A stretch of DNA of 64,000 nt from positions 62,001 to 126,000 of the forward strand of contig JAVBXN010000050.1 of NCBI GenBank assembly GCA_030824515.1. Reading direction: 5' to 3'. Under the pieces are notes generated by a model, which saw only the letters and a list, made by a program, of their open reading frames with translations, made no database searches and was not told where the DNA came from. Source of the DNA: Pelobacter sp. (GTDB taxonomy: Bacteria > Desulfobacterota > Desulfuromonadia > Geobacterales > Pseudopelobacteraceae). Shown here piece after piece: positions 4,369-36,895 of the stretch; position 1 is the first letter of the stretch, and each line of letters starts with the position of its first letter. Made by a program: the position numbers and the translations under genes.

Positions 4369-5160
4369 TTATTTTCCCTTGTTTCCGAATTCCGAAAAGA
4401 TTGATCCGGTGATGTTGATGCCTTTGACCGTTTTTCCAAGTGTTACATTAACTCCCGTCGCGACACCGCCACCGGTAATGGAACCGGCGGTCGGACGCCC
4501 GCCACCATAACCGCCTCGCACACGCAGATAATACTTTCCGCCTTTTCCCAGTTTGAGTACATATTTTCCGTCCTTATCAGATGGATCGGACGCATATTTG
4601 GGACTGCCGCTCATTTCTGCATTGTCATACGCGAAAACGATGGCGTGTTCAGCCGGTTTATTGTCAGGCAGAAACACTGTTCCCTCAATTGAAGTAACAG
4701 GACCGCGGTAGAGATGCTTTGCCGGATCAAAAGCAATAATCCCCTTGATAGTGCCTATATTGGTAGTGTCCCACTTGGTAATCCGGAAAGCCTTTTGTTT
4801 CCCCCTGACTTCATCCTCGTGACTTGGAAAAACATAGTCACCATTTACCGGCGGTCCCATCGGCGCCGAAGCAGACATTCGCTTGACTGCTCCCAGATAA
4901 TATCTGCCCGGTTTGGTCTGGATATTGAATTCACCGGCTTCGTCGGTTTCAGAAATCACATCGGGAACACGCCAGAATTTTCCCAACATCGGCGCCGGAC
5001 CACTGGAGGCATCGAAAAGGAAAACTATTGCCCCTGACATTGGCTGACCATTATTCAGCATGAGTTTACCGGCGATATTACCCACATCCTCCTCTTCACC
5101 CCATGCAAAAACCAGTGACGGAACCAGTAGCAGAAAGATTATTAGAGATTTTATGCTCAT
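4369..5160 (-). CDS. Secreted carboxypeptidase-regulatory-like (beta-sandwich) protein
   Basis: 263 residues from the ATG at 5160, which has GGAG 5 bases upstream and begins a textbook signal peptide (MSIKSLIIFLLLVPSLVFA). An upstream in-frame ATG at 5184 lacks these features. The mature part holds two copies of a beta-sandwich motif: I.GKLMLNNGQPMSGAIVFLFDA near the start and I.GTVFLPDNKPAEHAIVFAYDN in the middle, each followed by a D..G.Y.L...PG.YYL stretch. This is the CarboxypepD_reg/Cna-B-like fold, usually a structural or carbohydrate/protein-binding module rather than an enzyme. A Gly-rich stretch (GGYGGGRPTAGSITGGG) precedes the C-terminus. It is the first gene after a double terminator, so it should have its own promoter. 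Confidence 0.8.
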   Translation of the reverse strand: MSIKSLIIFLLLVPSLVFAWGEEEDVGNIAGKLMLNNGQPMSGAIVFLFDASSGPAPMLGKFWRVPDVISETDEAGEFNIQTKPGRYYLGAVKRMSASAPMGPPVNGDYVFPSHEDEVRGKQKAFRITKWDTTNIGTIKGIIAFDPAKHLYRGPVTSIEGTVFLPDNKPAEHAIVFAYDNAEMSGSPKYASDPSDKDGKYVLKLGKGGKYYLRVRGGYGGGRPTAGSITGGGVATGVNVTLGKTVKGINITGSIFSEFGNKGK

Positions 5161-5200
5161 GAACGCTCCATTAGACAGAATCATTCTCGATTATTTAACT

Positions 5201-5228: not shown

Positions 5229-5273
5229 AAAAACCCCCTTGTGGTCACCTGGGCAGGATTCCGAACAAGGGGG
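5229..5273 (-). terminator. Second tandem rho-independent terminator
   Basis: Stem of 9 pairs (CCCCCTTGT with ACAAGGGGG) around a 22-base loop, followed on the minus strand by TTTTTAT. It sits just after the first terminator and gives a double stop between the cytochrome operon and the next operon. Confidence 0.75.
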
Positions 5274-5280
5274 AAATTGA

Positions 5281-5311
5281 TAAAAAAGTGAGGCCGTGAA
5301 TACGGCCCCAC
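5281..5311 (-). terminator. Rho-independent terminator of the cytochrome operon
   Basis: On the minus strand GTGGGGCCGT-ATTC-ACGGCCTCAC forms a 10-pair stem with one G-T pair and a 4-base loop, followed by TTTTTTAT. It begins 19 bases after the stop codon of the 20-codon ORF, so that ORF is the last reading frame of the transcript. Confidence 0.85.
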
Positions 5312-5329
5312 TCATCTGATTACAATGGA

Positions 5330-5392
5330 TCAGCAAGGATGAACGTCTGCTGAACCAACCACCCGAGGCTTCATATAGGTCTGCTTTTTCAT
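5330..5392 (-). CDS. Putative 20-residue Cys-terminal peptide
   Basis: Short ORF too small for usual gene callers: ATG AAA AAG ... CAT CCT TGC TGA, product MKKQTYMKPRVVGSADVHPC. Support: a strong ribosome binding site (AAAGGAG, 8 bases before the ATG) in an otherwise empty stretch, its position 92 bases after the stop of the 11-haem cytochrome gene, and a terminator 19 bases after its stop. The product has a basic N-terminus (KK, K, R), a hydrophobic centre (VVGS) and ends His-Pro-Cys. It has no signal peptide. The function is not known to me: a modified-peptide precursor, a leader/regulatory ORF or a small accessory peptide are all possible. A B12-radical SAM enzyme is encoded 3 kb downstream, but a direct link is only inference. 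Confidence 0.55.
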   Translation of the reverse strand: MKKQTYMKPRVVGSADVHPC

Positions 5393-5409
5393 CTGTTCAT
5401 CTCCTTTCC

Positions 5410-5483: not shown

Positions 5484-8213
5484 TCACCAAGTGGATTTTG
5501 TGTTCCACAACTGACTGGTCGGATAAGTGGTCGAAGACCAGGCGCCGCCGGCTGTTGAAGAATCATGACAGACGCGGGTTGCAAAGGTGTATCCCGAAGT
5601 CGCGGTGCCACCTGTGGCTGTACGCTTGGTGCCGAAGAACCATGTACCGGAGTTACTGGCGCGGGTGTTGCCAGTGTTTACCGCAAGGTAACGTGCTCCG
5701 CCGCCAGGGAAACGGCCGGCGCCCATGCCGCAGTTGGTAACTCCTCGATTCTGGTTACCGGTTGCAGCCGAGCCGGTGTTGGCGGAAATAGAGCCGCCGG
5801 TAGCAAGGTTGGTTCGGTGTTTCCAGTCCAGGCAGTTGGTCACCAGCAGTCGCGGCAGATTGGATGTGTGCGGCGAGTGGCACTTGGAACAGGTATAGGC
5901 ATGCACGTTGTTGTTGGCGTTCAACCCGCCGGCGGTGGTGGATGCCCAGCCCTCGACGGAATTGTGTACCCTGGTCATGTTCTTCCAGGTTGTGCTGGAT
6001 GCGGCACCGGTATTTGCATTGATGTTGGCCTGTACATGGCAGCCGGTAGCACCTACGCCGGTTGCGGATGAGAGGCAGAGTCCGCCGAACTGGGCGGCGG
6101 TATATCCCTGGGTATTGGTCGCACCGGCGGTAGGCAGGGTGAATGTCCATGCCGGAGCAGCTCCGCCAGTACCGTTGCCGGTAGGCGCAGCAAGGGTGCC
6201 GCCGCCACTGAATCCTGTTGTCGTGGCGCCAAAGGTGTTCTGGTCGATCCGGTAGCGTGGAATGCTGGCGGTAGCAATCGCAGCCAGGCCGTCGCCACCG
6301 CCACGCGTCAGAGTCGTTGCAGATGGAGGAGCATCCTCGCGGTAGGGAGAGGTCATCCAGTTGCCCTTCAGGAGCGGCACGCCATACTGGTTGGCGGTAA
6401 CCTTGGACGTGTCGTTGGTTACACCATGCGGATCGTGGCATTGGGTACAGACGCCGTTGATCTGGTTGCCACCGGTCCGGCCGGCTACCAGCGCGGTTGC
6501 CAGTGTGGTCGAAGCGCCGAAATGACCGCCTTTGTTAAGCGATGAGCCGGCCAGGTCCTTGACCGGGTAACGTCTTTGGGCGCCGTTCTTGGCCTTCACA
6601 GTCGTGCTGCCGGTACTGAAGTTCCCGAACTCGGGAGTGTCAAAGTAGTTCTCAATGCGCTGGGTGGAGCCATATGTACCGAAATAGCCCCACGGAGCTG
6701 AATATGTCGTGCCGCCGACAGACTTGGTGGCATCTCCGGCATTCTTGGTGTTGTGGCAGTCAAAACAGAGAGCGGCTCCGGCTGTGTGCTTGTTCTTGTT
6801 TGGTGCAGCGGCGCTGCCGCCGGAATAGGGCCGGTAGCTTACGGAATAGCCGCCCTGGCCCGCAATAACATCTTTCAGAATGCCGCCGGTGGTGGTGGCG
6901 GGGGTGTAGCTGGTGACAGTGCCCACAACCGATGAACCGTGGGAGTTGTGGCAGTCGAAACAGGCAATGACAACAGCACCGCTGGTATTGGTCCAGAACT
7001 CATCGGTAGTGGCGGCTGCCGTTGCCACGTCGGCCTTGTTGTGAGTATAGCCGCGCTGGTTGAGGTCAGGCCTGCCGTGGGCTGAAAGCGCCTTGGTGAG
7101 TGTGTTCTTCTTGTTGGAACCATACATGTTAACCCAAGTCTGATTGGTTGCGGTAAACACAGTCGCGCCAAAAGTTGCCGGCAGCCATGTCACGGTGGCG
7201 GCATTGGTGTAACGGGTGTCGATACTGGTCTTGGTGGAATCCCATGAGAAGTTGTTGGGAGCCTTGCCATCGTTGAAGTAGTTTCTGGCGGTCACGTTCA
7301 GTGTGCCGGCTACATAGGAAGTATTGGTCGAGTTGTGGCAACTCAGGCAGTGCAGATTGAGCTTGGTGATGGATGCACGCGTATTAAGCGATGCTGTGTA
7401 AGATATGAAGTTGGTGCCGCGTACGCCGTTGGCGCCATAAACTACCAGATTGACGGCACCGCCGGGCGAACCCTTGTGATAGGTAGTCATGCCGCCGGTA
7501 GTATCTGCCTCCATGTGGCACTGATAGCAATGGGCGTTGGTCAGCGTAGTACCCTGGACGTGATGCGATCCGCCGACAAGATTACCACCATTCATCTGTG
7601 TGACTACCGCGGCTCTGGCACCCTGTACCTTGTCATGACAGGTCAGGCACTCACCGGCGCCTTTAAAGGCATCATTGTGTAAATGGCAACCGGTGCAATC
7701 GACTCCGTTATTGTGCGTATGGTCAGTAACCTGCGGCCGCTGATTGTTGGAGTTATGTTTGGCAGTACGCGTATGGCAAGCCTGGCAAACACGAACCGAT
7801 GCATTATATGTAGTGGGATTAGGATCCTTACCCATACTGGTAAGATTGATGAATGATACTGAAACAGAAGAAGTTACCCCTGTTGCAGTTCCTGCAGCAT
7901 TGAATGTACTGATATTCGCCATGGCGATAGACGACTTGACACGCTTGAGATTCGTGGCAGAGGAGCTGTGACAGGTAGCACAGTTAAAAGCACCGTACTT
8001 GCCACCGGTGACGCCCCAACCGTTGGCATTGTTCGGCCATTTTGTATTGCCGCCAAGATTGGTGCTGTTGTGCAGCAAAGCAGCCGAAACTCTGCCTGGC
8101 TTGTACCAACCCTGGTACATCAGTGCAGTAACAAGCAGCGTCAGCGTAAGCACGAGCATCCCCTTGGCCCACAATCTCATGCCGCGAACTTTTTTTGCTA
8201 TGATTTTACCCAT
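5484..8213 (-). CDS. Multihaem c-type cytochrome, 10 CXXCH plus one CX11CH
   Basis: 909 residues. An N-terminal hydrophobic helix after a basic stretch (WAKGMLVLTLTLLVTALMYQGW) is a signal peptide or anchor. Ten CXXCH sites are visible (CATCH, CQACH, CTGCH, CLTCH, CYQCH, CLSCH, CFDCH twice, CTQCH, CSKCH), plus an expanded CLSSATGVGATGCH (CX11CH), giving up to 11 covalent haems. Haem density is low for the length: long Gly/Thr/Ser/Asn-rich stretches separate the sites, typical of large extracellular cytochromes of metal reducers. After the last CXXCH the C-terminal 130 residues hold only single Cys residues. It is the fourth cytochrome of the operon, 94 bases after the 35-haem gene, and should work in extracellular electron transfer. 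It is not assigned to a named Omc protein. Confidence 0.9.
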   Translation of the reverse strand: MGKIIAKKVRGMRLWAKGMLVLTLTLLVTALMYQGWYKPGRVSAALLHNSTNLGGNTKWPNNANGWGVTGGKYGAFNCATCHSSSATNLKRVKSSIAMANISTFNAAGTATGVTSSVSVSFINLTSMGKDPNPTTYNASVRVCQACHTRTAKHNSNNQRPQVTDHTHNNGVDCTGCHLHNDAFKGAGECLTCHDKVQGARAAVVTQMNGGNLVGGSHHVQGTTLTNAHCYQCHMEADTTGGMTTYHKGSPGGAVNLVVYGANGVRGTNFISYTASLNTRASITKLNLHCLSCHNSTNTSYVAGTLNVTARNYFNDGKAPNNFSWDSTKTSIDTRYTNAATVTWLPATFGATVFTATNQTWVNMYGSNKKNTLTKALSAHGRPDLNQRGYTHNKADVATAAATTDEFWTNTSGAVVIACFDCHNSHGSSVVGTVTSYTPATTTGGILKDVIAGQGGYSVSYRPYSGGSAAAPNKNKHTAGAALCFDCHNTKNAGDATKSVGGTTYSAPWGYFGTYGSTQRIENYFDTPEFGNFSTGSTTVKAKNGAQRRYPVKDLAGSSLNKGGHFGASTTLATALVAGRTGGNQINGVCTQCHDPHGVTNDTSKVTANQYGVPLLKGNWMTSPYREDAPPSATTLTRGGGDGLAAIATASIPRYRIDQNTFGATTTGFSGGGTLAAPTGNGTGGAAPAWTFTLPTAGATNTQGYTAAQFGGLCLSSATGVGATGCHVQANINANTGAASSTTWKNMTRVHNSVEGWASTTAGGLNANNNVHAYTCSKCHSPHTSNLPRLLVTNCLDWKHRTNLATGGSISANTGSAATGNQNRGVTNCGMGAGRFPGGGARYLAVNTGNTRASNSGTWFFGTKRTATGGTATSGYTFATRVCHDSSTAGGAWSSTTYPTSQLWNTKSTW

Positions 8214-8307: not shown

Positions 8308-11300
8308 TTACAGATTTGTGTGGCACAGTGCGCAACCGGCGCCGCGGTCGGTTACCCATCGTGGACTGCTGTTGCCCCGTCCATTGTGGCAGACAATGTT
8401 GGAGCAGGTTTCACCGGCGAAACCGGCTGTTCCGGCATTAAGAGCGCGCTTGGATGTCTCGTAGGCGGCCAGGCCGGTCTTGTAGTTGCCGCCGTTACGT
8501 ATCCAGCCGTTGGTGGTGGCGTTGCCGGTGTAGTTGCCGTATGAATCCGGCCGGAGCTGGGCGCGGGTCTTGATAGTAACTGCCGCGAACTGTACGTTGA
8601 CGGAACCGTTGACGTGATTTCTCAGGTTGGAGAGATAGATCGCGCCGTTTGCCGCAGTATCAAGAGCGCCAGAGTGACAGACCAGACAGTCGGCCTTGTA
8701 CTTGTTGCCGGAGGTTGCAACAGTGCCGTTGTGGCAGATGTTACAGCTGATCGTGGTCGAGTAGGCCGGGTCGCCGTGGCCGGCAAGGACGCCCACATTT
8801 CCGGAAGCCGGAATCAGGCCGTTATTTGTCTTCAGCGTCAGCGTATCGTAGTGCAGGCCGGCGTCATGTGCATTATGAGCAACGTCGTTAGGCGAGTTGC
8901 CATGGCACTTGGTGCAACGGTTGCTTACGGTGTAGGGAGTATTCCATGCACCCGTCGCCAGATATGCGCCTTTGCCATCCGAGTGACAGTATGCGTTGGA
9001 ACAGTCGGTGGTAAGGCCGGTGGTTGCATTGCGTGTCCAGGTGGTGGTTTTGCTCCTCATGGTACCGCCGCCGGCTACCGAGTTAAGCTCCAGGTTAACG
9101 GTACCATCAGCATGGGTTGTATTCAAAAGCGGATGACAGATTGAACAACCGAAACCGTAGTTGGCAAGGGTCGTTGCATTGGTATCGCCGGATGAAGGCG
9201 AGATGTTGGCGGTCATGTTCAGGTACGCGGTCAGGCCACGGGCCAGGTACGCGCCGGTGTGTTTGGCGTGTGCGCCGGTGGAGAGGGTGCCGTGACAGGA
9301 TGCACAGGTCAGGTTTGTAGCTCCCCACTGTACCGCGACAGCATTGTTATAGTGGCAGCTGATGTTCGAACAGCTTGAGTTGGCGGCCTTGTAGAAGGTC
9401 TTGCCGCCACCGGCGGTGAAGTTATTGAACTGGTTGATGTGCTGACTGCTGGCGATGATCGAAGTACCGTTGGATGTGGTCTTCGAGTGACAGTAGACGC
9501 AGGAGGCCGCGGCAGCCGCCGGACTCGATTGCGGCACGTGCTTCTGATGCGAGTTGGCGGTTGCGGTGCCTGCGCCGCCGTTGGTGTAGTTCGGTTCACC
9601 GGCCTGGCTGGTGAATGCGCCCGGGCCATAGCCGTGACAGCCTTTGCAAGTGAGGGTCGTGGTGGCAACACCCCAGCGCTTGCCACCGGTCATGTTGCGG
9701 TATGCCAGCGGTGCACTCAGGTTACCTGAGCTGTGGCAGTAGACGTTGCCGCAGGTCAGCTGGGTTGCAACAGTCATGAACTTGCCGGCCTTGGCGCCGG
9801 AGTAGTCGATCAGTTTGTTGATATGCTTTGTGCGGTCTGTAAGTACGGTGTTGCTGCTGACAGTCTTGATATGGCAGTCGGCACAGCCGAGATACAGGTT
9901 GACGGTTGCATTGTTGACATGTGCTGCGTGCGGAGCCGACAGTGTGTTGCCGGTCGTTCCGTTGCCATGGCACTTGACGCAGTCGGTGCTGGCGGTAGTA
10001 GCCCAGCTGACGACCGAGCCGGCGGCAAAAGCGGCGCCTTTCTGACCGTTACTGTGACAGTAGGTGTTGTTACAGCCGGTGCCGGTACCGGTGGTCCAGT
10101 TGTAAGTAGTGTTATCAGCGGTACCACCGACAACCGTATTGGCAGCATAAGCTGCCAAAGAACCTTTTCCGGCTGCGGTATAGCGGAAGAAGACGTTACC
10201 GGCCTGAACGGCGCTGACGGCGCCCTGGGCATGGGCTACGGTTGCATTGTTCGGATCGTGGCAGGCGGCGCAACCGAAACGGTAGACACCACCCACACCA
10301 GACGTGCTCAGGTTGCCGGAAATGACATCGAAGCGTGCCTGTACCGCGGTACCGACATGTATCTTGTGAGCGTTGTTGCTGAAACCGGTATCGCTTGACA
10401 GCGCACTGTGACAGCTGTTGCAGGCCAGAGCAGCGGCGCCCCAGACAGGAGATCCTCCGCCGTGGCAATAGGTGGCGGAACAGGTCTTGTTGGACTTGTT
10501 ATATGTTCCGGAGAAGTTGGTAAAAGTATTCGGTCGCTTGAGTCGCGCATCTATGTTGCCATCGATATGATCGACACTTCCAGCCAATATCGTTGTTCCG
10601 GTTGCGGAAGCCGTCAGGCGGTGACAATACTGACAGGAGGTTTGTGCAGTAGCCAGCACGGAACCGACGTGCTTCTGGTGGCTGTTGGATGCCGGCTGAT
10701 TTGCGCCGGTATTGGCATAGTTAGGCTCACCGGCTGTGCTGGTGAAACCGCCGCTGTTGGTGCCGTGGCACGCTTTGCATGAGAGCGCTGCTGCTGCCGT
10801 GGTCCATGCCGGAGGTGCCACGTTGTTGTTCACCGCGCTGCCGATCTTGCCGTTACTATGGCAGTAGAAAGAGGTACACGATGCAAGGCGGCCGGCCCTG
10901 GCGCCGGAGTAGTTGATCAGTGTGTTGACATGCCTGGTGCGGTCGCTGATGGTTGTATTGTTGCTTACAACGGCGGAATGGCAATCCACGCAACCGAAGT
11001 TGGTGCCGAGGTAGGCGGCATTGTTGACATGTTTGTCATGACGTCCCGAGAGGGCGGTTCCGGCACTACCGTTGGTGGTGGCATTGCCGTGGCATGAGGT
11101 ACATGTCAGCGGAGTGTTGTTCCAGGCCTGGGCTGCGACATAGGTCTTGCCGGTTGCCCTGCCGTCACTATGGCAAGCCACGGAGCCGCAGGTTCCTGCT
11201 GCGGAACCGGGCAGAGTGTTGTTGGCTGTGTAAGTACCGCCGTAGGTCGCGCTGATATCGACGTTTTTCTGGAAGTTGGCGTGCTTGGCGGTCTGGTTGA

Positions 11301-12708
11301 TGGTCGTATTGGTAGATGCCGTCAGGCTGTGGCAGTCGGCACATCCGATATTGTACATCGATGAAGCATAACCGCCCACGTGGCGACGATGTGCCACGGA
11401 TGTAATCTGACGCTGAATAGAGTTGTTGGTGGAATCACCGCCGTGGCAGGCACTGCAGGCACGCACTCCGCTGGGAAGCACGAAGGCTGCGGTCCAGCTC
11501 GGTGTAGACATGGTTTTATAAACCGCTGCGGTATAGTTGCTACCGCTACGCCCCTGGCTGTGGCAGTAGGTGTTGCTGCAGTAGGCGTTCGCCGGCACTG
11601 CGCTTGCTGCCCGTGTGTAAGGTGTTGCTGCGCCGAGATAAGTACCGCTGACGGCGCCGGACAGGTTCTGGAAAGATATATTAACGTTCTTGTCTACATG
11701 GTTTGCAACGGTTGCAATGGTCATGCTGTTGGAAACGGTTGCCGCATGGCACTTTCTGCAGTTGATATTATAGTTTGAACCGGTTCCGCCGACATGCTTG
11801 AGATGTTTGGCGGTCAGAGTAGTTGTCGCTGTGTTTGAATCATGACATCCGGCACAGGTTAGTGTATTGCCCCAGGTTGCGGCAACCTTGGGTGCGGCGT
11901 AACCGCTGCTGAGAGTGCCGGGGCTGTGGCAGTATGTAGAAGAACAGGAACCGGTTGCGCTGATTCCGGCGCTCGGCAGGAAATTGCTGCCGGTACGGCC
12001 ACCGGTGTATGTGCCGCCCAGGTTGGGAGCAGCGGCAAAAGTCAATGCGATCGGCATCTTGCCGCTGGAAGCATGCTGAAATGCAGCTGTTCCAGCCATG
12101 GCATTGTAATCGGGGTGGCATTTTGCGCAGGCGGTCTGGGTGCCGCCACCCGCGGTGATGTGCTTGGCATGGTTACCGGAGGTCAGGCCGGTTGAAGCGT
12201 GACACTGTGCGCAGTTGGCATCATTGTTATTGGCTGTTTTAGTGCTCGACCAGGTTGTGGCCTGTCCCCATGTTGGTGTAGCGGTTTCAAAGTGACAGTT
12301 CACGTTGGAACAGTTAGATAATGTCGGTGTCGCAGACTGGGTAAATGACACGCCTTTGTTATACTTGGCGGCCGCGCCCATTCTGGAGTTGTGAATGACA
12401 CCGGTCATGTTGATATAGTTCACGCCGGCAACCGAAGTTTTCATACTATGGCTGTATTCCGAGGCGCCTACCGTATTATGGCATGACTGGCAATTGTTCA
12501 CGCTGAAATGCGTGCTGTGATTGCCGGCAAATGCGCCTGTACCGGTGTTTCTGGTTGCCGAGTCGGCCGGAGGATAGCCGTGACAATCGGTACAACTGGC
12601 AACAGTGCCGGTGGCAGCAACTGCATTGCCAGGAAGGGCCAAGGGGATCAGCATCAGCATAAACAAGGTAAAGGCTGTGCATACTCCCGATTTGGTGTGA
12701 AATTTCAT
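8308..12708 (-). CDS. Giant multihaem c-type cytochrome, 24 CXXCH plus 11 CX4CH sites
   Basis: 1466 residues from the ATG at 12708, chosen because AAGGAG precedes it by 6 bases and a clean signal peptide follows (MKFHTKSGVCTAFTLFMLML, cleavage near NAVAA); an upstream ATG at 12759 is not supported. I count 24 CXXCH and 11 CX4CH sites (CSNVNCH, CSSTYCH, CSNTYCH, CGSVACH, CTSFYCH, CSATYCH, CNNTYCH, CGNVYCH, CSNISCH, CSNAYCH, CSNIVCH), so up to 35 haems. The sites recur as CX4CH...CXXCH...H..HV...CXXCH units of roughly 90-130 residues, matching the Geobacter CxxxxCH...CXXCH family (GSu_C4xC__C2xCH). It is exported and probably extracellular, serving long-range electron transfer. Preceded by the 27-haem gene (64 bases) and followed by the 11-haem gene. 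Confidence 0.93.
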   Translation of the reverse strand: MKFHTKSGVCTAFTLFMLMLIPLALPGNAVAATGTVASCTDCHGYPPADSATRNTGTGAFAGNHSTHFSVNNCQSCHNTVGASEYSHSMKTSVAGVNYINMTGVIHNSRMGAAAKYNKGVSFTQSATPTLSNCSNVNCHFETATPTWGQATTWSSTKTANNNDANCAQCHASTGLTSGNHAKHITAGGGTQTACAKCHPDYNAMAGTAAFQHASSGKMPIALTFAAAPNLGGTYTGGRTGSNFLPSAGISATGSCSSTYCHSPGTLSSGYAAPKVAATWGNTLTCAGCHDSNTATTTLTAKHLKHVGGTGSNYNINCRKCHAATVSNSMTIATVANHVDKNVNISFQNLSGAVSGTYLGAATPYTRAASAVPANAYCSNTYCHSQGRSGSNYTAAVYKTMSTPSWTAAFVLPSGVRACSACHGGDSTNNSIQRQITSVAHRRHVGGYASSMYNIGCADCHSLTASTNTTINQTAKHANFQKNVDISATYGGTYTANNTLPGSAAGTCGSVACHSDGRATGKTYVAAQAWNNTPLTCTSCHGNATTNGSAGTALSGRHDKHVNNAAYLGTNFGCVDCHSAVVSNNTTISDRTRHVNTLINYSGARAGRLASCTSFYCHSNGKIGSAVNNNVAPPAWTTAAAALSCKACHGTNSGGFTSTAGEPNYANTGANQPASNSHQKHVGSVLATAQTSCQYCHRLTASATGTTILAGSVDHIDGNIDARLKRPNTFTNFSGTYNKSNKTCSATYCHGGGSPVWGAAALACNSCHSALSSDTGFSNNAHKIHVGTAVQARFDVISGNLSTSGVGGVYRFGCAACHDPNNATVAHAQGAVSAVQAGNVFFRYTAAGKGSLAAYAANTVVGGTADNTTYNWTTGTGTGCNNTYCHSNGQKGAAFAAGSVVSWATTASTDCVKCHGNGTTGNTLSAPHAAHVNNATVNLYLGCADCHIKTVSSNTVLTDRTKHINKLIDYSGAKAGKFMTVATQLTCGNVYCHSSGNLSAPLAYRNMTGGKRWGVATTTLTCKGCHGYGPGAFTSQAGEPNYTNGGAGTATANSHQKHVPQSSPAAAAASCVYCHSKTTSNGTSIIASSQHINQFNNFTAGGGKTFYKAANSSCSNISCHYNNAVAVQWGATNLTCASCHGTLSTGAHAKHTGAYLARGLTAYLNMTANISPSSGDTNATTLANYGFGCSICHPLLNTTHADGTVNLELNSVAGGGTMRSKTTTWTRNATTGLTTDCSNAYCHSDGKGAYLATGAWNTPYTVSNRCTKCHGNSPNDVAHNAHDAGLHYDTLTLKTNNGLIPASGNVGVLAGHGDPAYSTTISCNICHNGTVATSGNKYKADCLVCHSGALDTAANGAIYLSNLRNHVNGSVNVQFAAVTIKTRAQLRPDSYGNYTGNATTNGWIRNGGNYKTGLAAYETSKRALNAGTAGFAGETCSNIVCHNGRGNSSPRWVTDRGAGCALCHTNL

Positions 12709-12772
12709 AACAAACTCCTTGTACAGAGCATTTATAGGTGATTTGAACCGTGTCATCAAAAAGCTCCTCTTC

Positions 12773-15700
12773 CTACTTCCAGGTTGGCGATGCCTTGAAG
12801 TGGCAGCTTACATTCGAACAGCTGAATGACGGGTTGTAGTTGGTATTGTCAAGCGTGCCGGTGCTGTTGAACTTGAATGAATCCTGGACATCAATACTGG
12901 CGTTGGCAGATGTTGTATGGCCGCCGTCAAATATGGTCTGGCTGCCGTTGAAGTGGCAGGCGGCACAGGCCATCGTATTGTTGGAAGTACCGGCGAAACC
13001 GTCACCTGCAGGTTTTGCGGATGCTACCGTGATATGAGACTGGTGAGCATTGGTGGCCGGCGGGTAACCGTGGCAACCGTCACAAGCACCGCCGCCGCCC
13101 GGTTTGAAGGCATAGCCGGTAGCTTTGTGGCTGTGGCAACTCAGGCAGCGCTTGTTGTTGCCCATGTGTCCCCAGCTGCCACTGAAGGTCCCTACATAGA
13201 CACCGGTCGAGGAGGTGTAGTTCCTGTAAACCTTGGTGTTGGTATGGCAGACCTGGCAGATACCGGTGCGACTGGCGTTGACGAAACCGGTTGTCATGTT
13301 GCTGAAGTTGACGGTTTTGACAGCTGCTCCGCGGCCGTTGCCGGTGTAGACATTGAAGGTCTTCTTGAGCATGACCTTGTTGGATGTGCCGTGCACATCG
13401 TGACAGGATACACACTGCGATATGGTCGGCAGCGTCTTGTCGGTAACATGCGACAGGAAGTTCATCTTGTTGACGTCCGTCACCACGCCCCGTCCGCCGT
13501 TGGCGCCGTCATTGTGGCAGTCGATACAGAGCTTGTCGGCGCTATAGGTTGCATTCAGGCCGGACAGGTTGGAGAACACACGTGCCCCGCGATACGATCC
13601 GGTAGCGGTCAGGCTGCCGTCGATATGTTTGCTGTTGGCGTTGTGGCAATCGTTGCAGACGATCGAAACGAATGCGCCATGGCCACGGTTGGTAAATGTG
13701 GAGTAGGACTTGTATGGAGCCTGGACACCACCGGTTGCATTATAGGTCGACCAGGAACGGTTTGCCGCAACCTCGGTGCTGCCGTTGCCCATGCCGCTGT
13801 GACAGGACTGGCAGGAGAGGCGGGCCGGGTTGGTCCAGGTCGGTGTGGACTGCGCGTGGCAGTTGAGGCAGTAGGTTGCTCCGCTGTTCTTGGAGATGGA
13901 ACCATCGACGTGCGTACCGACCAGTTCACCTGTATATACGTGGCAGGCGTTGCAAGTGGCGTTGGTGTTGCGCTTGGGACCATAGCTGCTGGAGATATGG
14001 GTGAAGTGCGCATTGCTGGACATGATGCCGAAGCCGGTGTTGACCGCGGTCAAGTGGCAGGTTCCGCACTTGCCGCTGTTGCGATCGCTCCAGGTTACTG
14101 TGACCAGTGCGGGAGCGCCCTTGCCATTGGAATGGCAGGCTGAGGTGGTGCAGGTTGTGCCGTTCCATGATGTCCCGGCGGCGCTACCACTGAAGCTGAG
14201 ATCACGCACACCGTTTACGTGAGCAGGATAGCTGGATATCACAGAATTGTCGCTGACAGTAGAGTTATGACAGAATTTGCAATTAATAGCTTTACCTGTT
14301 GAGGTATTGTTACTTACATGGCGGAAGTGCGATCCGGTTGAGAGATTGTTGAAGGTCGCGTTGACACCGTTGTGGCAAGCCACGCAGCGTCCGTTACCGG
14401 CATTGATGATTGATCCGCGCACACCGGCGGCCCAGGACACGGTCTTGGCCTTCGTCAAGACTGCGGTACCGTAGCTGTGGCAGTACATGTTTGAACAGGT
14501 TGATGTACCTGCTCCGGGTGTGAATACGGTAGCCGGAGAAAGCGTTCCTGCGGCGTTAAAAGGAACATCCTGGTAACCCTGGTTCAAGTGTGTAACATCA
14601 GTCTTGTTATGGCACTGTGAACAACCAAACGAATAAGGCTTGCCGGCAGAGTGAGTTGGATGACCGGCGGTGGACTCATTCTTGTAGGCGACATTTGGTT
14701 GCAGGTAGCTTCTCTGGGATACGCCCAGACGTGAGCTGTAAACCGCATAGCCTTTTGACATGATCGGGTTCAGCGCTGTTCCGTAATTGATGTTACCGGC
14801 AACGGTGTGCTCTGGAGGCGAACCGTGGCAGCTGGTACATCCTTCTGGTGGTTTGGTTGCATGCAGGGAAGCATGGCAGGCTGTACATTCATCTTTATTC
14901 GATGTTGTTGTGTGCTCCTGCACTGAAGACGGCAAACTATGACAAGCCTGGCAGACACCTGTACCAGTGGCGTTCTTTAAAGGCGCGGTGCTGGAGGTGC
15001 TGGTCAGGAATGCCTTGCGACGGTATGAATTTAGTTTAACACCTGCAGAGTAGTTGACATAACGGCGCAGCATGTAGACGTTCGGTATGGCATTGTCGCC
15101 GCCCAGCGCGACATCTTCCGGTTTCAAATACTCAACGTGGCCGGAGTGGCAGTCAACACACTGGATCGGGTTAGCAACGGTTTTGGAACCGGCATAGACC
15201 TGATGGTTAGGCCTGTTATGGCAGTTGGTACAGATATTTACCGATGAGGCGTCAGCTGTCTTGCCGAATGTATCGGTGCGCAACAGCATGCCGCGCGAAG
15301 AGGACAGATTGGCCCAGGTGCCGCGGCCGTCGACGGTGCCGCTGTTGGAGTCGGCATAGTGGGTTGAATGGCAGGATGAACATTGAATCTTGCCGTTGAC
15401 CAGCTTCATGGCTGCGGTCGGGTTACCTGGATTAGCGTTTCTGGGTGGCACAAAATAATCGGTCGGGCTTGTAACAGCCTTGGAGGTTGCGGATGTGTAT
15501 CTGAAGTTGACCGGGTGCGATCCCAGCAGGTGACTTGAAGTATCACGAGTACGATGGCAGTCACGGCACATTTCATCATTGGAGTTCAATGAACGCAGGA
15601 AAGGAGCAGAGTTGGTAGTTGAAGAGCGTGCTATATGAACATTATGGCAACGAGCGCATGAAAGATTGGTTCCAAGTGTAGCCGGATTCATTTTAGGATC

Positions 15701-16054
15701 TGTAGGTCTGTTGGCGCCAGCTTGGGGAGCCACTTCCGAACCGGCCCAGTTATGGGATGTAAATGAAAGCTTCGCCGGTGCAACGCCTCCGGAGTAACCG
15801 TTAAACCGGTTATATATGTTGGCTGCATCGGACTGGTAAAATACCGAAGTGATATTTACGTTTGCAGACCCCGGTTTGTGGCAGGTCACACACATGTTAT
15901 TAAAGGAGGTTGAAGCCGTCACAGTCGCGTTGTGGCAACTGGAGCAACCCACTTGGGTAACATTAGTGTGAGGCGCTACAATTGCAATTGCCGAGAGTGG
16001 TATGACCAACAGCATGGCAACTGACAAGAGTATGAAGCTGATATTTTTTTTCAT
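12773..16054 (-). CDS. Multihaem c-type cytochrome, 24 CXXCH plus 3 CX4CH sites
   Basis: 1093 residues from the ATG at 16054, supported by AGGAG 6 bases upstream and a signal peptide (MKKNISFILLSVAMLLVIPL...AIAIV). I count 24 CXXCH and three CX4CH sites (CSNMYCH, CTTSACH, CSNVSCH), up to 27 haems. The N-terminal 500 residues are mainly of the doubled-CXXCH type (CARCHNVH, CSSCHSTH, CVDCHSGH, CVSCHDVHG); the CX4CH units lie in the C-terminal half and at the very end. The last 40 residues close on a CSNVSCHFKASPTW motif like one near the start of the next cytochrome (CSNVNCHFETATPTW), which suggests descent from a shared repeat. Gap of 33 bases to the upstream 4-haem gene and 64 to the downstream gene: clearly one operon. 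Confidence 0.93.
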   Translation of the reverse strand: MKKNISFILLSVAMLLVIPLSAIAIVAPHTNVTQVGCSSCHNATVTASTSFNNMCVTCHKPGSANVNITSVFYQSDAANIYNRFNGYSGGVAPAKLSFTSHNWAGSEVAPQAGANRPTDPKMNPATLGTNLSCARCHNVHIARSSTTNSAPFLRSLNSNDEMCRDCHRTRDTSSHLLGSHPVNFRYTSATSKAVTSPTDYFVPPRNANPGNPTAAMKLVNGKIQCSSCHSTHYADSNSGTVDGRGTWANLSSSRGMLLRTDTFGKTADASSVNICTNCHNRPNHQVYAGSKTVANPIQCVDCHSGHVEYLKPEDVALGGDNAIPNVYMLRRYVNYSAGVKLNSYRRKAFLTSTSSTAPLKNATGTGVCQACHSLPSSVQEHTTTSNKDECTACHASLHATKPPEGCTSCHGSPPEHTVAGNINYGTALNPIMSKGYAVYSSRLGVSQRSYLQPNVAYKNESTAGHPTHSAGKPYSFGCSQCHNKTDVTHLNQGYQDVPFNAAGTLSPATVFTPGAGTSTCSNMYCHSYGTAVLTKAKTVSWAAGVRGSIINAGNGRCVACHNGVNATFNNLSTGSHFRHVSNNTSTGKAINCKFCHNSTVSDNSVISSYPAHVNGVRDLSFSGSAAGTSWNGTTCTTSACHSNGKGAPALVTVTWSDRNSGKCGTCHLTAVNTGFGIMSSNAHFTHISSSYGPKRNTNATCNACHVYTGELVGTHVDGSISKNSGATYCLNCHAQSTPTWTNPARLSCQSCHSGMGNGSTEVAANRSWSTYNATGGVQAPYKSYSTFTNRGHGAFVSIVCNDCHNANSKHIDGSLTATGSYRGARVFSNLSGLNATYSADKLCIDCHNDGANGGRGVVTDVNKMNFLSHVTDKTLPTISQCVSCHDVHGTSNKVMLKKTFNVYTGNGRGAAVKTVNFSNMTTGFVNASRTGICQVCHTNTKVYRNYTSSTGVYVGTFSGSWGHMGNNKRCLSCHSHKATGYAFKPGGGGACDGCHGYPPATNAHQSHITVASAKPAGDGFAGTSNNTMACAACHFNGSQTIFDGGHTTSANASIDVQDSFKFNSTGTLDNTNYNPSFSCSNVSCHFKASPTWK

Positions 16055-16087
16055 GGCTCGCTCCTGGTACGCTATCTTCAATGTGTA

Positions 16088-29174: not shown

Positions 29175-32100
29175 CTAGAACAGATGAATTTCCCCAAATC
29201 TTGAGCCGCTGTCCATATTGTAATTGAAAAAACCGGTGCAACTGGACTCTCCCTGGTGTGAATCGCAATAGTCCTTGCTATGACGGTGGTCATCCTCGCT
29301 TGTGCATGCCGATGACATAATACGACAGAACTTACCACCATTCAGACTGTACCCTTCGACGACCTTGAACGGCCCGGACCCCATTCCCGGATAGATCGAT
29401 TTCGAACAATCAGTATAAATGGTTGCCTTGTGGTAACCATTGACGTAGATCTTGACATATTGCAACATGGCGCCACCTGATGACTTGCCCGTAAAGCTAA
29501 AGCTGCTGTTGGGGGCAGAGATGGCGTTATAAAGGGTCTGCCCGCCGCTGTCCTTCACCGTCACCATCGCGGTGGACCACCCTTTATACATGAGTGTCAA
29601 CCGGTTTACGCCGCCACTGCAAGCGCCACATGTCGGATTTGACGGCGCTGGCGGTTCCGGCGTCTGATTGCATCCGCCAACTGAGCCGACAGCTCCGCAC
29701 GCCTTGCCGTTGTCATAATCATCCAGAATCAGATAGAGCGGCTCTGCTTCCTTCCATGCAACGCTGTCGCCAGTTACTCCACTCCCCACATTATGAAGAG
29801 CCATCCATGCCTCAGCCTTGGCAATGGTTTGAGTTACACAAGATGAATCGCCACACCCCATTGCATTCAGCTTTGCTGCAACAAGCGCCTTGAACAGGGT
29901 ATAGGTCTTATCCCCGCATACCGAACTGTTCATAAGCGCAATGGCCTGTGACTTGGTATAGTTCCTGCCACCGATGGTTATCGAAGACACCGGCCATGCT
30001 TCGGAATGATTTTTCCAATAGCCGGGCGATTTCGGGACCGTAGCGCTGCAGCCGAAGTAATAGGCGTTATCACTGGCCGTTGCCGTAACTCCCATAAACG
30101 TGCCGGATGCGGTTGCTGTGTTTGAATGCTGGCCGGCCAGCGCCTGAAACGGGCCTATGACACAGGAGAATGATCCACCGGGCTGAAGCGACGCGGGGAT
30201 GGCACAACTGCTCGTGACATGCACGCTATCAACCAGCGCGATATCGTTCAGCGCAGTTGTACCGGTATCGGTCACCACAAACTTATAGTAGACCTTGCCG
30301 CAGGAAGCAGAGGTCCCGCCGGAACCGGCACATCCTTCGTAGCGGCTGTGTTCTTCCCTGGACCGGGACTCGCATGATGTTTTGTCATAGCTGTCATCGC
30401 ATCGGTGAGACCTTCCGTGTCCGCCGCGATTCCTGTCATGTCTGTCGCAATCCGAGGGATTGTTCCTGCAGTGATCAATGTCCTTTTCGTCGCATTTGCC
30501 GTCGCGATTGTAATCGCTGTAATCCCGGTCATGCTCCGACTGTGCCCTGGATTCACATGACACTTTGTTGTAACTGTCGTCGCAGCGGAAGTTGCGTTTG
30601 AGGTTGCCCCGCTCGCCGTCAAACCTGTCGCAGGAAGCAGGATTGTTTCTGCAGAAATCGGCGTCCCTCTCGTCACACCTGCCATCGCGGTTATAATCGC
30701 TGCGATCACGGTCGTTTCTGTCTTCCAGCACGCATGTAGATTCGCAGGAGGTCTTGTTGGCGCTGTCACCACAGCTAAACGATCGTTTCAGCTTCCCGTG
30801 TCCACGATCATGTTTGTTGCACTCTTCGGGATTGGATTTGCAGTAGCTTATGTCGCCTTCATCGCACTTGCCGTCGCGATTGTAGTCGTCGGAATCACGG
30901 CCATGTTCGCGCAGGGCATAGTAACCGCAGGAATCCTTGCTGGAACTGTCGTCACACCTGTAGATACGCCTGAACAGGCCATGATCATTATCGTGCCGGT
31001 CGCAACGCCCCGGATTCGCCTTGCAGTAGTCCACATCCTTTTCATCGCATCTGCCGTCGTTGTTGTAATCACTGTGATCCTTGTCATGCTTCCGTTTGGC
31101 ATATGCGTCACATGCTGTCTTATCATAGCTGTCATCACACCTGAAGGTACGCCGGCAGTTGAGATGATCCCGGTCATGCTTTACACAGATTTCCTTATTG
31201 GATTCGCAATGGTCAATATCCTTCTCATCGCACTTGCCATCGCTGTTGTAATCGCAACGATCCCTGTCATGTTCCTGACGTGCCCTGCCCTCGCACGCCC
31301 CTTTGTCCGAACTGTCGTCACAGCGGTGCTTGCGCCTGTCGTTTCCATGATTCCTGTCATGCTGATCGCAAGCAGCACGGTTTGATCTGCAGTAATCCAT
31401 GTCTTTTTCATCACATTTGCCATCGTTATCATAATCTGCGCGATCCCTGTCATGTTCTTCACGGGCCTTGTCTTCACAGTGTGCACCATTGCCACTGTCA
31501 TCGCACCTGAAGCGGCGTTTCAGGTTACCGCGTTCCTTGTCCAGTTGGTCACAGGCGACCCGGTCATTCAAACAATAATCGACATCAATTTCGTCGCACT
31601 TGCCATCTCTGTTGTAATCGCTGCGGCCTTTGTCGGATTTAATTTCATCCTGCCGTCTTGATTCGCACAAGTTCCTGCTGGAACTGTCGTCGCATCTGAA
31701 GACACGGCCGGTGCTTCCATGATAAGCATCATGTCTGTCACAGGCAGCCTTGTTGTTTCTGCAATAATCCACGTCGATCTCATCGCACTTGCCGTCCCTG
31801 TTATAATCGGCATGGTCCCGCCCATGGCTTTCACGCGCCCTGTCTTCGCAGTAGGTCTTGTTTGTGCTGGCGTCACAGCGGTGTTTGCGCTTATGGCTGC
31901 CATGCTCGGAGTCGTGCCTGTCGCAGCCGAACTTGTTGTTCCTGCAGTAATCGACATCTTTCTCATCGCACTTGCCATCGTGGTCGTAGTCACAATGATC
32001 CTTGTCAAAGTCCTGCTCACATGCAGGACAAAGAGCGATCTTCAGAACGTTGTCCAGGTCGGTGCGGTACCAGGTTTTGCCATCGTTTGATGCGTATTTC

Positions 32101-35100
32101 ATGATATCTATAACCGGGTTTGTGCCGCAGGTATTCTCACCATCGAACCTGACGTCAACCACTTTGAAGGTTATGTAGGAATTCCCGTCAATTTGTCCGA
32201 CCAGGAGACCACACTCGGCAGAGAACGCAGCTTTCTGGGTTTCGCTCGGATGGTATTGCCCCTGGACCGTAACAACCACCTGTTTGGCTGAAGCGGGCAC
32301 GCTGAAACCGAAATTTGTTCCAACCGGGATACCATTGCCGCTGATACTGTCAAACCAGCTGTCATAAAGTATCTGCCCGGTAATACTGTCAGCCCTGACC
32401 CGAATCCTCTCCCCTGGATCACCAGTTGATACGCGCCACTCCAGTTTAAGCGTCATATAAACGACACCGTCTTTACAAAGGGTGCAAGGCAGAGAGAAAC
32501 CAAAATCAACGGTCTGGTCCGAGCTGCTGTCAGAGGCAAGTTCTACATTCGCCGGATTCCCGTTGCTGTCGGTTGCCGGTGTCCCGTTGCCGGTAGGAGC
32601 AGCGGTATAACCATCTGGCGCTATTGCTGTTATGGAATATGTTCCCTGGCATAGGCCGTCAAAAAGGTATTCTCCGCTTGCAGACGTTGTGAAGTTCACG
32701 CTGACCGGCATGCCATAGATGTCGTTGCCGGACAGGGTTACGACTACACCGGCAAGTCCGGGCTCATTGGCATCCTGAACACCGTTCCGGTTCAGGTCAT
32801 TCCAAACAAAGTCACCGATAGTCCCACTGCAGGGTTTGAAAAAGCCGAAGTCTATGGTCAGGTCCGAACTGCTGTCCGTGGCAACCGTAACCGTGAAGGG
32901 GCTGCCGTTGTTGTCGGTAGCAGGCGTACCCTTGCCGGTCATAGTCGCTGTGTAGCCATCCGGTGGTGATACGGAGATCGCATATGCCCCCTGGCAGAGC
33001 TCCGTAAACTGGTAAGCGCCGCTGGCAAGCGTGGTGAAGCTCTTGCTGACCGGCATGCCGTAGATGTTGCTGCCTACCAGGGTTACGATGGCTCCGGCAA
33101 GCCCCGGTTCATTGGCATCCTGAATTCCGTTCCGGTTCAGGTCATTCCAGACCAGATCGCCGAGAGCTGCGCTGCAGGGCTTGAAGAAACCAAAGTCAAT
33201 CGAAGTATCACTGACAGCATCAGAAGAGATGGTCACGGTCGCAGGATTGGAATTACTATCCTTCTCCGGATCGCCGGCAGCCTCGGACGCGGTCGGGGTC
33301 ATACCGGCGGGCGTCAGCGCCTCGATCTTGTAGTCGCCGCTGCAAAGCCCGATAAACTCGTATGATCCATCAGCCTTGGTGCTTGTAGTACGCAAAAGTG
33401 TATGCTGGCTGTCGCGCAGATTAACCACCACACCGGCAATGCCCGGCTCACCCGAATCCTGGATGCCGTTCTGGTTGAGATCATTCCAGACGAGGTCGCC
33501 GATAACGGCGGCACAAGGTGTGTTGAAACCGAAATCGATAGTCTTGTCACTGCTGTCATCGGCGGTCAGATTCACCTGGGCTGGGCTGCCATTGCTGTCC
33601 AGCGCAACATTGCTCCCCTGGGAGGATGGTGATGGCACGAAACCGGCCGGAGTAACAACCTCAACCGAATAATCGCCACCGCAGAGGCCGCCGAAGAGGT
33701 AACCACCCTGTTGATCGGTGTTTGTAGTGGCTATGACTGTGCCAGAAGCATCTTTCAGCTTCACGGAAGCGCCGCTGATACCAGGCTCAAGTTCATCCTG
33801 GATTCCATCACGGTTTTTGTCATGCCAGACAAGATTGCCGATACTGGCGCTGCAGGGGGTATTGAACCCGAAATCGATCGACTGGTCACTTGATGTATCT
33901 GCAGGCAGATTTACCGCAAAAGGATTTGGATTACTGTCTAGCTCGCGGTTCAAACCGGCCAGTGCGGGCGATGCGGTCCGGCCGGCAGGTGGAACGACCT
34001 CCACACGGTAGTCACCGGCACATAATCCGTCGAACCGGTACAGGCCGCCACCGGCGGTGGTGGTAAGGGCAAACTGGACGTTAGCGGCAGTAAGCAGCTT
34101 GACGGTTACTCCGTCCAACCCAGGCTCACCCGAATCCTGAATGCCATCACGGTCAAGATCATCCCAGACCAGATTTCCGATACTTCCGGCACATGGCGGA
34201 TTGAATGCAAAATCGATAGTCGGATCAGCACTGTAGTCGCTGTCAAGATATACTGACGCCGGAGACCCGTTACTGTCCGTTGCCGGGTCGCCACCCTGCA
34301 GGCTATCTGAAATCTGCAGACCGGCTGGAGTAACCACCTCCACCGTGTAACTACCGCTACAGAGACCGCTGAAGGCATAAAAACCTGCCTGGCCAAGAGG
34401 ACCAAGCCCGGAAGTGGTAGCGGCAACAACCACATTTGCTGAATCCCTGAGAGTGACTGTCACACCGTTAATCCCGGTCTCGCCGAAGTTCTGAATACCG
34501 TCACGGTTTGCGTCCAGCCAGACCATGTCGCCGATTGAACCGGAACAGGGAGAATAGTAGCCGAAATCGACGGTCGGATCAGAACTGTCGTCCGCATCCA
34601 GAATCACCGCGGCCGGGCTGTTGTTGCTGTCTTCAGTGCCGTCAGTCGCGTTGGCCGGAGAAACGACCATACCGGCAGGAAGTGTCGAATTGTCCACTTC
34701 GACACGGTATGTTCCCGCGCATAGCCCGCCAAACTGATAAAAACCATTGCCGGTGGTAGTAGCGGTGGCAACCAGATTACTGAAACTGTCCTTCAACCAG
34801 ACCCGGATATTGTTGATCCCCGGCTCATCCGAATTCTGGATGCCGTTCCGGTTCAGATCGTTCCATACGAAATCGCCGATACTGCCGGTGCAGGGAGTAT
34901 TGAATCCAAAGTCAATGGTAACTTCACCGGAATAGTCGCTGGCAAGAACCACTTCGCTCGGATTCGGATTGCTGTCGCTGGCTATGTTGCCACCCTGGAG
35001 CGGAGTTGACAGGACAAAACCGGCCGGAGCGACAGCTTCGACTCGGTAGTTGCCGGCACACAAGCCGCTGAATAGGTATTTGCCCGAACCGTCTGTAGTC

Positions 35101-36161: not shown

Positions 36162-36213
36162 GATTAACCTCCAAAGCTGTGTCACTCCGGACGCAAAAAG
36201 AGTCCGAAAGGCC

Positions 36214-36254
36214 AAAAAAAAATGCAGTGCACCCGGATAGGCTGATGCACTGCA
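36214..36254 (-). terminator. Rho-independent terminator after the PEP-CTERM gene
   Basis: On the minus strand TGCAGTGCA pairs with TGCACTGCA over a 14-base loop, followed by a run of nine T. It separates the PEP-CTERM gene from the giant repeat gene, which must then have its own promoter or depend on read-through. Confidence 0.85.
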
Positions 36255-36274
36255 ACTTGAATAAAAGATCGGCG

Positions 36275-36895
36275 TTACTGGCGTTTGCGGCGACTTGCGG
36301 CTACAATGCCCAGCAAGCCGGCACCAAGGAGAATGATCGTGGAAGGTTCGGGTACCGGGGTATTAACATTGAAATTATCAGACTGAAAGTAACCGTTGTG
36401 CATATCGGAAAACTGTATTCCGAACAGCTTGGAAGCATCAAAACCGGCCGCTGCCAGCAACGGGTCCAGATAGGTTATATTGCCCAGGAATTGTGAATCA
36501 CCATTGTTGTCATCGTACATGGAAAGATTGACCATAAGGCTGGCGGGGCCGACGGTGTTCATGTTGAGATCAAGCATGGTGCTGGCGAAGAGCGTCAAAT
36601 TACCTGTATTTGTGAGCTTGTCGTAGCCGAGATTGTAGAAAGCCGTAATATAATTCTGATCAAAGATTGTGCCACTGGCGTTAAGTGTAAAAAACCCAAT
36701 TCCCATTGCCAGGAAAGTGTCCTGCGTATTACCGACCGCGAGATTCTGTGCTGTAATATCGGGGTCAGTGTGAGAGGTAAACAGTGTGGCCTGCGCCGAC
36801 GGCGCCAGCGCCAGACCGGTAAGCAGAAGAGCTGCTGCCAGGGTTATGCGGAACAGGTTTGAAAGCCGATTGAAACTGTTTTGAATTGTAGTCAT
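36275..36895 (-). CDS. PEP-CTERM sorting-domain protein
   Basis: 206 residues. Signal peptide (ITLAAALLLTGLALAPSAQA), a 140-residue beta-rich secreted domain with no Cys, then a C-terminal PVPEPSTIILLGAGLLGI helix and basic tail (ASRRKRQ): the PEP-CTERM signal recognised by the exosortase system, which cuts and releases or anchors the protein, often into extracellular polysaccharide. No exosortase gene is in this window. It is preceded by a putative sigma-54 promoter and followed by its own terminator, so it is a single-gene unit. The function of the mature domain is unknown; a floc or biofilm matrix role is typical of the family. Confidence 0.92.
   Translation of the reverse strand: MTTIQNSFNRLSNLFRITLAAALLLTGLALAPSAQATLFTSHTDPDITAQNLAVGNTQDTFLAMGIGFFTLNASGTIFDQNYITAFYNLGYDKLTNTGNLTLFASTMLDLNMNTVGPASLMVNLSMYDDNNGDSQFLGNITYLDPLLAAAGFDASKLFGIQFSDMHNGYFQSDNFNVNTPVPEPSTIILLGAGLLGIVAASRRKRQ

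Follow-up and report, generated by a model that had tools for sequence, protein, structure and literature searches.

The window analysed here, a 64,000-nucleotide stretch of Pelobacter sp. DNA, carries a run of multihaem cytochrome genes on its minus strand that is followed, in the same direction, by a gene for a 20-residue peptide, MKKQTYMKPRVVGSADVHPC (P0001). The peptide gene begins with an ATG at position 5392 and its stop ends at 5330; the plus strand of 5330-5392 offers no comparable product. We propose, at a probability of about 0.88, that this gene encodes the precursor of a ribosomally synthesized and post-translationally modified peptide (RiPP) belonging to GeoRSP, a system composed of a PqqD-like protein (TIGR04302), a radical S-adenosylmethionine (SAM)/SPASM enzyme (TIGR04303, GeoRSP_rSAM) and a SPASM protein (TIGR04304). 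That figure applies to the identity of the peptide as a GeoRSP precursor and not to the site of its modification or to its function.

The peptide gene and its family

An earlier note on this DNA described an open reading frame (ORF) with an AAAGGAG ribosome binding site 8 bases before its ATG and stated no strand; the site is present, on the minus strand. The placement of the gene behind the last cytochrome gene was likewise correct, a cytochrome with 10 CXXCH motifs ending 91 bases upstream. The distance from stop to terminator, given as 19 bases, was nearly right and measures 16 from the last base of the stop and 18 from its first. Of the two tandem terminators that had been described, one was called by a terminator scan as the only hairpin near the peptide; the second, whose stem is formed by CCCCCTTGT and ACAAGGGGG, was read from the sequence and has a loop that exceeds the length the scan allows.

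Related peptides follow the consensus M(K/R)n..YxxP[KR][VI]VG[ST]xxVHPC-stop and are mostly 17-22 residues long. We gathered 158 distinct copies (17-22 residues), most of them from relatives in the Desulfuromonadales and from Nitrospirota, using a strict expression in which Y..P, G, S and PC were required. Conservation among these copies is therefore partly by construction, which is not true of the third codon positions; these are largely free, and the flanks carry little information. A Shine-Dalgarno-like site (GGAG, GAGG or AGGA) lies at a comparable distance in 150 of the 158 copies. The family thus has the properties of a short precursor gene selected as a protein, with a conserved, translated-type frame. 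A hairpin with a stem of at least 8 lies within 90 bases downstream of 116/158 copies, versus 5/158 in mononucleotide shuffles, and the peptide gene therefore mostly ends transcripts.

The extent of the family was defined by several searches. A protein search of 76 genomes of the same family gave matches in 19 at E values up to 10; when 40 matches were read in frame, 36 copies, that of the window included, were taken as real and 4 as spurious (L094-L097 were excluded as out of frame). A profile built from 34 peptides recovered 18 of the 76 genomes at 38.2 bits or more, the next best match scoring 16.5 bits, and a mis-spaced control pattern with one N fewer matched in two. The earlier expectation of a conserved frame in related genomes is borne out by these 18 genomes and by third codon positions that largely vary where the code allows. 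Copies recovered by the profile alone vary in the middle and keep YxxP and VHPC; those outside the strict expression include VLGVAHVHPC (G239) and VSWGTVHPC (G143).

The DNA pattern P..V.GSxxVHPC-stop occurs once in the window and in none of 100 shuffles of it. Across the named genomes of 84,980 species it was found in at least 118 stretches, against a chance expectation of about 0.5 estimated on the assumption of equal base frequencies. Among the matches listed, record titles pointed mostly to Desulfuromonadales, Geobacteraceae and Nitrospirota, Deferrisomatales and Phycisphaerae appearing in single records. The pattern contained no Tyr; among the same listed matches, the Tyr of YxxP was nevertheless present in 93 of 94 unique peptides and Tyr together with Pro in 92, a set that leaves out sequences shorter than 17 residues and two that were cut by an edge (L201, L221). 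Within the genome that contains the window, HPC-stop occurs in 34 places and the family pattern at the place in the window only; the profile search agreed in finding one copy. NCBIfam and Pfam scans of P0001 matched no family, though very short queries may escape such scans, and tblastn of the peptide against plasmids gave no match.

Copy number differs among genomes. The Nitrospirota genome G107 holds 16 profile matches at E values up to 0.001, and the two of its copies that were read (G107:C29, L310) adjoin ORFs of 297 and 563 residues. A copy in G045 (L098, 6098-6154) reads YxxL and VQPC and looks like a decaying relic.

Co-occurrence and gene order with GeoRSP

The YxxP motif near the start of the peptide pointed to a RiPP precursor recognized by a PqqD-like protein, and GeoRSP was therefore tested. 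The genome that contains the window encodes all three GeoRSP proteins (L104, G000:C13), which score 162, 617 and 342 bits on TIGR04302, TIGR04303 and TIGR04304 against cut-offs of 100, 400 and 300, so that its GeoRSP system qualifies as a member by the curated models. Among the 76 genomes of the family, GeoRSP_rSAM exceeded its cut-off in 16, of which 15 also had the peptide; one genome had GeoRSP only and three the peptide only. Within the order, where both searches covered an identical 141 genomes, 33 had both, two GeoRSP only (G026, G170), six the peptide only (G036, G038, G045, G137, G140, G144) and 100 neither. The association extends to a second phylum: in a Nitrospirota class, 150 genomes drawn evenly comprised 21 with both, one with GeoRSP only (G222), none with the peptide only and 128 with neither. 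The GeoRSP count in this class consists of 21 genomes over the cut-off plus G105, in which the gene is split between contig ends, and the weakest of its 21 peptide genomes is G239 (25.4 bits), whose peptide reads MVKKYIRPKVLGVAHVHPC. Fisher tests gave 4e-12 for the family, 1e-23 for the order and 1e-24 for the class; in a genus of 39 genomes (g1) the counts were nine with both, one with GeoRSP only, three with the peptide only and 26 with neither (9e-6). Furthermore, among 48 genomes identified by way of peptide loci, a sample that overlaps the family, order and class sets, 44 scored at least 200 bits for GeoRSP_rSAM and 37 were over the cut-off. The G045 copy, which has lost both YxxP and HPC, sits in a genome devoid of GeoRSP, and this counts in favour of a GeoRSP precursor.

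Gene order links the peptide to the same system. Fifteen of the 158 copies lie directly behind the radical SAM gene of GeoRSP, at a distance of 38-202 bases; the product of this gene ends in DPHCW. The gene is cut by an edge in three of the 15 loci, and one locus, L146, cannot be followed beyond the peptide. The next ORF after the peptide is a GeoRSP_SPASM homologue in 13 of the 14 loci that can be read further on. A PqqD homologue directly precedes the radical SAM gene on the same strand in all 54 GeoRSP loci tested, some of which overlap one another. Loci of the Desulfuromonadales type therefore have the order PqqD - radical SAM - peptide - SPASM. Read from coordinates, the distance between a peptide copy and the radical SAM gene is at most 17 kb in 25 of the 54 genomes that have both. 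The precursor gene thus stands beside or between maturase genes in other genomes and not in this one, where the peptide is on contig C60 and the GeoRSP maturase on C13.

The neighbourhood of GeoRSP in this genome (L104, 5016-14268) contains genes for OpuAC-like, ResB-like, ArsP/CuZn-type permease, cupin, FmdE, PhnD-like, TPR and YedE-type selenium transporter proteins, and a similar run of OpuAC-like, PhnD-like, TPR-like and YedE-like genes was seen by eye in the Nitrospirota locus L305 (1441-6431).

The PqqD-like protein of this genome has a Pfam PqqD match in addition to its 162 bits on TIGR04302. Its AlphaFold2 model (mean predicted local distance difference test score 92, 26 sequences) has the fold of a peptide recognition protein: the best PDB match is TbiB1, which we take to be a lasso peptide protein, bound to its leader peptide, and the next distinct entries are PqqD and a lasso B1 protein with its leader. 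In PMC13381572, YxxP is reported to be essential for binding by one such recognition protein, and PMC12710340 describes W/Y/LxxP-type motifs, YxxP among them, in groups that include the PqqD and lasso proteins, and places the bound motif in a cleft that helix 3 and strand 3 of such proteins form. Modelled fold and motif would thus fit a recognition element that binds its precursor.

Several observations weigh against assigning the peptide to GeoRSP. In three genomes GeoRSP is present and no peptide was detected (G026, G170, G222); near GeoRSP in these three no convincing other YxxP or PC-ending small ORF was found. Six genomes have the peptide without GeoRSP, namely G038 (97% complete), G045 (93%) and four that are 66-81% complete. 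In 29 of the 54 genomes with both, that of the window included, no copy was seen as close as 17 kb to the radical SAM gene, and the copies are often on other contigs. In the exceptional genome G190 (Nitrospirota; L290, L305) the peptide lies 77 bases behind the radical SAM gene with no SPASM gene next. The Desulfuromonadales-type SPASM homologue falls short of its curated cut-off (97.8 versus 300 bits), as do two of the four PqqD proteins scanned (99.1 and 86.4 versus 100 bits). Five further Nitrospirota genomes match the enzyme model at 176-185 bits and were excluded from the GeoRSP count, and the Fisher values ignore shared ancestry.

Neighbouring genes and alternative explanations

Coordinates of the features around the peptide gene are collected in the table below. 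The gene directly after the peptide (4369-5184), for a CarboxypepD_reg-domain protein, has homologues that stand immediately in front of the peptide in 14 other copies. The earlier note had also drawn attention to a B12-radical SAM gene just downstream, in the next operon. Homologues of this gene occur in only four of 36 peptide neighbourhoods, that of the window included, and since the other three score 102, 79 and 20 bits they are not one orthologue; the gene was dropped as a candidate for the enzyme that acts on the peptide and is probably unrelated to it. Elsewhere in the window (29175-36895, minus strand) there is a 2346-residue ORF without CXXCH, preceded by a 206-residue ORF that ends in AGLLGIVAASRRKRQ, resembling a C-terminal sorting signal.

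Features of the peptide locus in the window
Feature	Position	Strand	Remarks
Peptide gene MKKQTYMKPRVVGSADVHPC, predicted GeoRSP precursor	5330..5392	-	YxxP at residues 6-9, VVGS at 11-14, VHPC at 17-20
Ribosome binding site AAAGGAG, 8 bases before ATG	5401..5407	-	Read from sequence
Intrinsic-terminator-like hairpin, 12 pairs and T run, 16 bases after stop	5286..5313	-	Terminator scan
Second hairpin, 9-pair stem CCCCCTTGT/ACAAGGGGG, long loop, then five T	5234..5273	-	Read from sequence
Multihaem cytochrome, 909 residues, 10 CXXCH, ends QLWNTKSTW; directly upstream of peptide, 91 bases away	5484..8213	-	
Multihaem cytochrome, 1483 residues, 24 CXXCH, same direction	8308..12759	-	
Multihaem cytochrome, 1102 residues, 24 CXXCH, same direction	12773..16081	-	
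CarboxypepD_reg-domain protein, signal-like start by eye, directly after peptide	4369..5184	-	

The genes that precede the peptide elsewhere are more varied. Thirteen of the 158 copies sit at an edge, and for eight no upstream ORF was found; in the remaining 137, the upstream ORF encodes a protein with at least five CXXCH motifs in 46, a truncated protein with 1-4 CXXCH in five, the radical SAM enzyme in 15 and another protein in 71. The automatic choice of the upstream gene that underlies these numbers is crude, the nearest-ORF and longest-ORF versions differing, and some of the short partners from GC-rich DNA are unlikely to be real genes. The position after multihaem genes, which the earlier note had suggested looking for in related genomes, holds for 51 of the 137 copies and not for the other 86. 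Complete haem partners have 6-36 CXXCH motifs and 453-3113 residues. A Pfam scan of 52 non-haem partners found CarboxypepD_reg in 24, an HD domain in five and fn3 in four; these 52 were drawn from 69, five being too long and twelve dropped by eye as doubtful, so the proportions are biased. By a crude test, a signal-like hydrophobic stretch is present in 16 of 23 complete haem partners and in 18 of 53 complete non-haem partners, and for many partners the description as a surface protein is therefore not established. Thirty of the 51 haem partners end in a motif of the type WN..[ST].W, as does the cytochrome adjoining the peptide in the window, and this end may act as a signal for the sorting or assembly of the cytochromes. 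In five copies (L169, L172, L208, L211, L229) the upstream protein, of about 190 residues, begins with MNYGITR or nearly so.

The earlier note had listed three possible identities for the peptide. Of these, there is strong support for the precursor of a modified peptide, from co-occurrence with the maturase system, from adjacency in 15 loci and from the YxxP motif, and the other two, an unmodified metal-binding accessory and a regulatory ORF, both fit less well. An unmodified accessory of the multihaem cytochromes, such as a helper that binds haem or metal through His-Pro-Cys, would account for the 51 of 137 copies that follow a CXXCH protein and for the end of the operon in the window. We regard it as very improbable, because the other 86 copies have the radical SAM gene (15) or CXXCH-free ORFs (71) in front of them, and because YxxP and the place between two maturase genes would be left unexplained. 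The distribution of the cytochromes points the same way. The cytochrome marker TIGR01904 is found in 45 of the 76 family genomes, that is in 17 of the 18 with the peptide and in 28 of the 58 without it, so that cytochromes of this type are usual where the peptide occurs, yet not predictive of it; GeoRSP separates the genomes better (15 with both, one with GeoRSP only, three with the peptide only). TIGR01904 took the place of PF09698, a model of 36 positions for which an E threshold of 1e-10 was too stringent to make the control informative. Proximity to cytochromes has also been considered as the sign of a detached C-terminal tail, joined to the cytochrome by frameshifting or readthrough, since the gene lies directly behind one. 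The chance of this is practically negligible: the peptide has its own ribosome site, distances from the cytochrome stop to the ATG fall in all three phases (20, 17 and 14 of 51), and many copies have no cytochrome upstream.

A regulatory small ORF, acting as an attenuator, leader or translational coupler, would be in keeping with the strong ribosome site, with the terminator hairpins nearby and with the few loci in which a cytochrome gene follows soon (L071, L078, L079). It is nonetheless highly improbable, as the hairpin after 116 of 158 copies places the gene mostly at the end of transcripts, conservation resides in residues rather than in codons or flanks, and the peptide tracks an enzyme system that is often unlinked to it. 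An alternative of another kind accepts a GeoRSP product and makes it a secreted signal or an antibacterial RiPP, whose proximity to surface proteins reflects shared regulation only. The genetics would be identical to those of a GeoRSP product with a role at surface proteins, and many radical SAM/SPASM RiPPs are antibacterial; we consider this alternative unlikely, though worth keeping in view, given that the end of the peptide varies hardly at all from phylum to phylum and that one genome can hold many similar copies (the 16 matches in G107). No immunity or export gene was noticed in the neighbourhoods read, where no systematic search for immunity, exporter or leader peptidase genes was made.

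Proposed maturation and relation to known systems

If the peptide is a GeoRSP precursor, the GeoRSP system encoded elsewhere in the genome (G000:C13) would mature it. The PqqD-like protein would bind the N-terminal part of the peptide (MKK..YxxP) and may present the C-terminal part, which ends in VHPC, to the radical SAM/SPASM enzyme and its SPASM partner; the enzyme, together with this partner, would then modify the end of the peptide. The invariant Cys as last residue suggests its sulphur or its carboxyl group as the target, and our guess is that this Cys, Cys20 in the peptide of the window and perhaps altered jointly with a residue of VVGSxxVH, is the site of a thioether or other cross-link or, alternatively, of an oxidative loss of the carboxyl group, since the enzyme scores next best on AhbD, NirJ and the mycofactocin maturase. 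Operons are shared by many copies with giant multihaem cytochromes and further proteins that are probably located at the surface, and such cytochromes or surface-exposed proteins may therefore use the product as cofactor, ligand or partner. The proposed substrate family, its members about 20 residues long, makes the orphan GeoRSP system testable. In two phyla it also connects a radical SAM system for peptide modification with giant multihaem cytochromes and with other proteins of probable surface location. Genes as short as about 20 codons are below the usual limits of annotation, which would explain why the peptide genes were missed. NCBIfam and Pfam scans and a literature search that left most subscription journals uncovered yielded no GeoRSP precursor family, the one paper retrieved for GeoRSP being unrelated; judged by titles and abstracts, the same literature search yielded nothing on this peptide, and no report of the connection between such a radical SAM system and giant multihaem cytochromes came to light.

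One of the closest known systems is GeoRSP itself, all three proteins of which exceed the curated cut-offs in this genome and beside or between which the peptide is encoded in 15 loci elsewhere. The next-best models of the GeoRSP radical SAM enzyme are the heme b synthase AhbD, NirJ2 and the mycofactocin maturase, and its best PDB match is PqqE; its scores are well below the equivalog cut-offs, and the enzyme is therefore none of these four. Lasso peptides have in common with the GeoRSP peptide and its PqqD-like protein the YxxP motif and the B1-type recognition fold. No lasso cyclase of the asparagine-synthetase-like kind and no leader peptidase was found among the L104 proteins scanned, the genomes not having been searched for them, and the GeoRSP peptide differs in ending in VHPC without a longer core.

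The biosynthesis of pyrroloquinoline quinone (PQQ) uses a short precursor, PqqA, and, as in GeoRSP, a PqqD recognition protein and a radical SAM/SPASM enzyme. The GeoRSP enzyme, however, scores 116 bits on the PqqE model, versus 381 bits, and falls short of the PqqE equivalog; no other PQQ gene was present among the GeoRSP-locus proteins scanned, and the GeoRSP peptide carries YxxP and a C-terminal VHPC. On the MftC model of the mycofactocin system, whose cut-off is 265 bits, the GeoRSP enzyme of this genome (L104) scores 161 bits and is thus not an MftC equivalog, the radical SAM enzymes in L178 and L305 scoring 200.7 and 175.9 bits; GeoRSP differs from mycofactocin also in the C-terminal end of its peptide and in its many dispersed copies. 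We tentatively suggest, as a doubtful but possible extension of these comparisons, that GeoRSP converts the VHPC end into a redox cofactor or covalent ligand, the third of ribosomal origin after PQQ and mycofactocin, and that the repeated genes at operon ends supply each giant extracellular electron-transfer or surface protein with its own modified peptide, for a part in electron transfer or in assembly at the cell surface.
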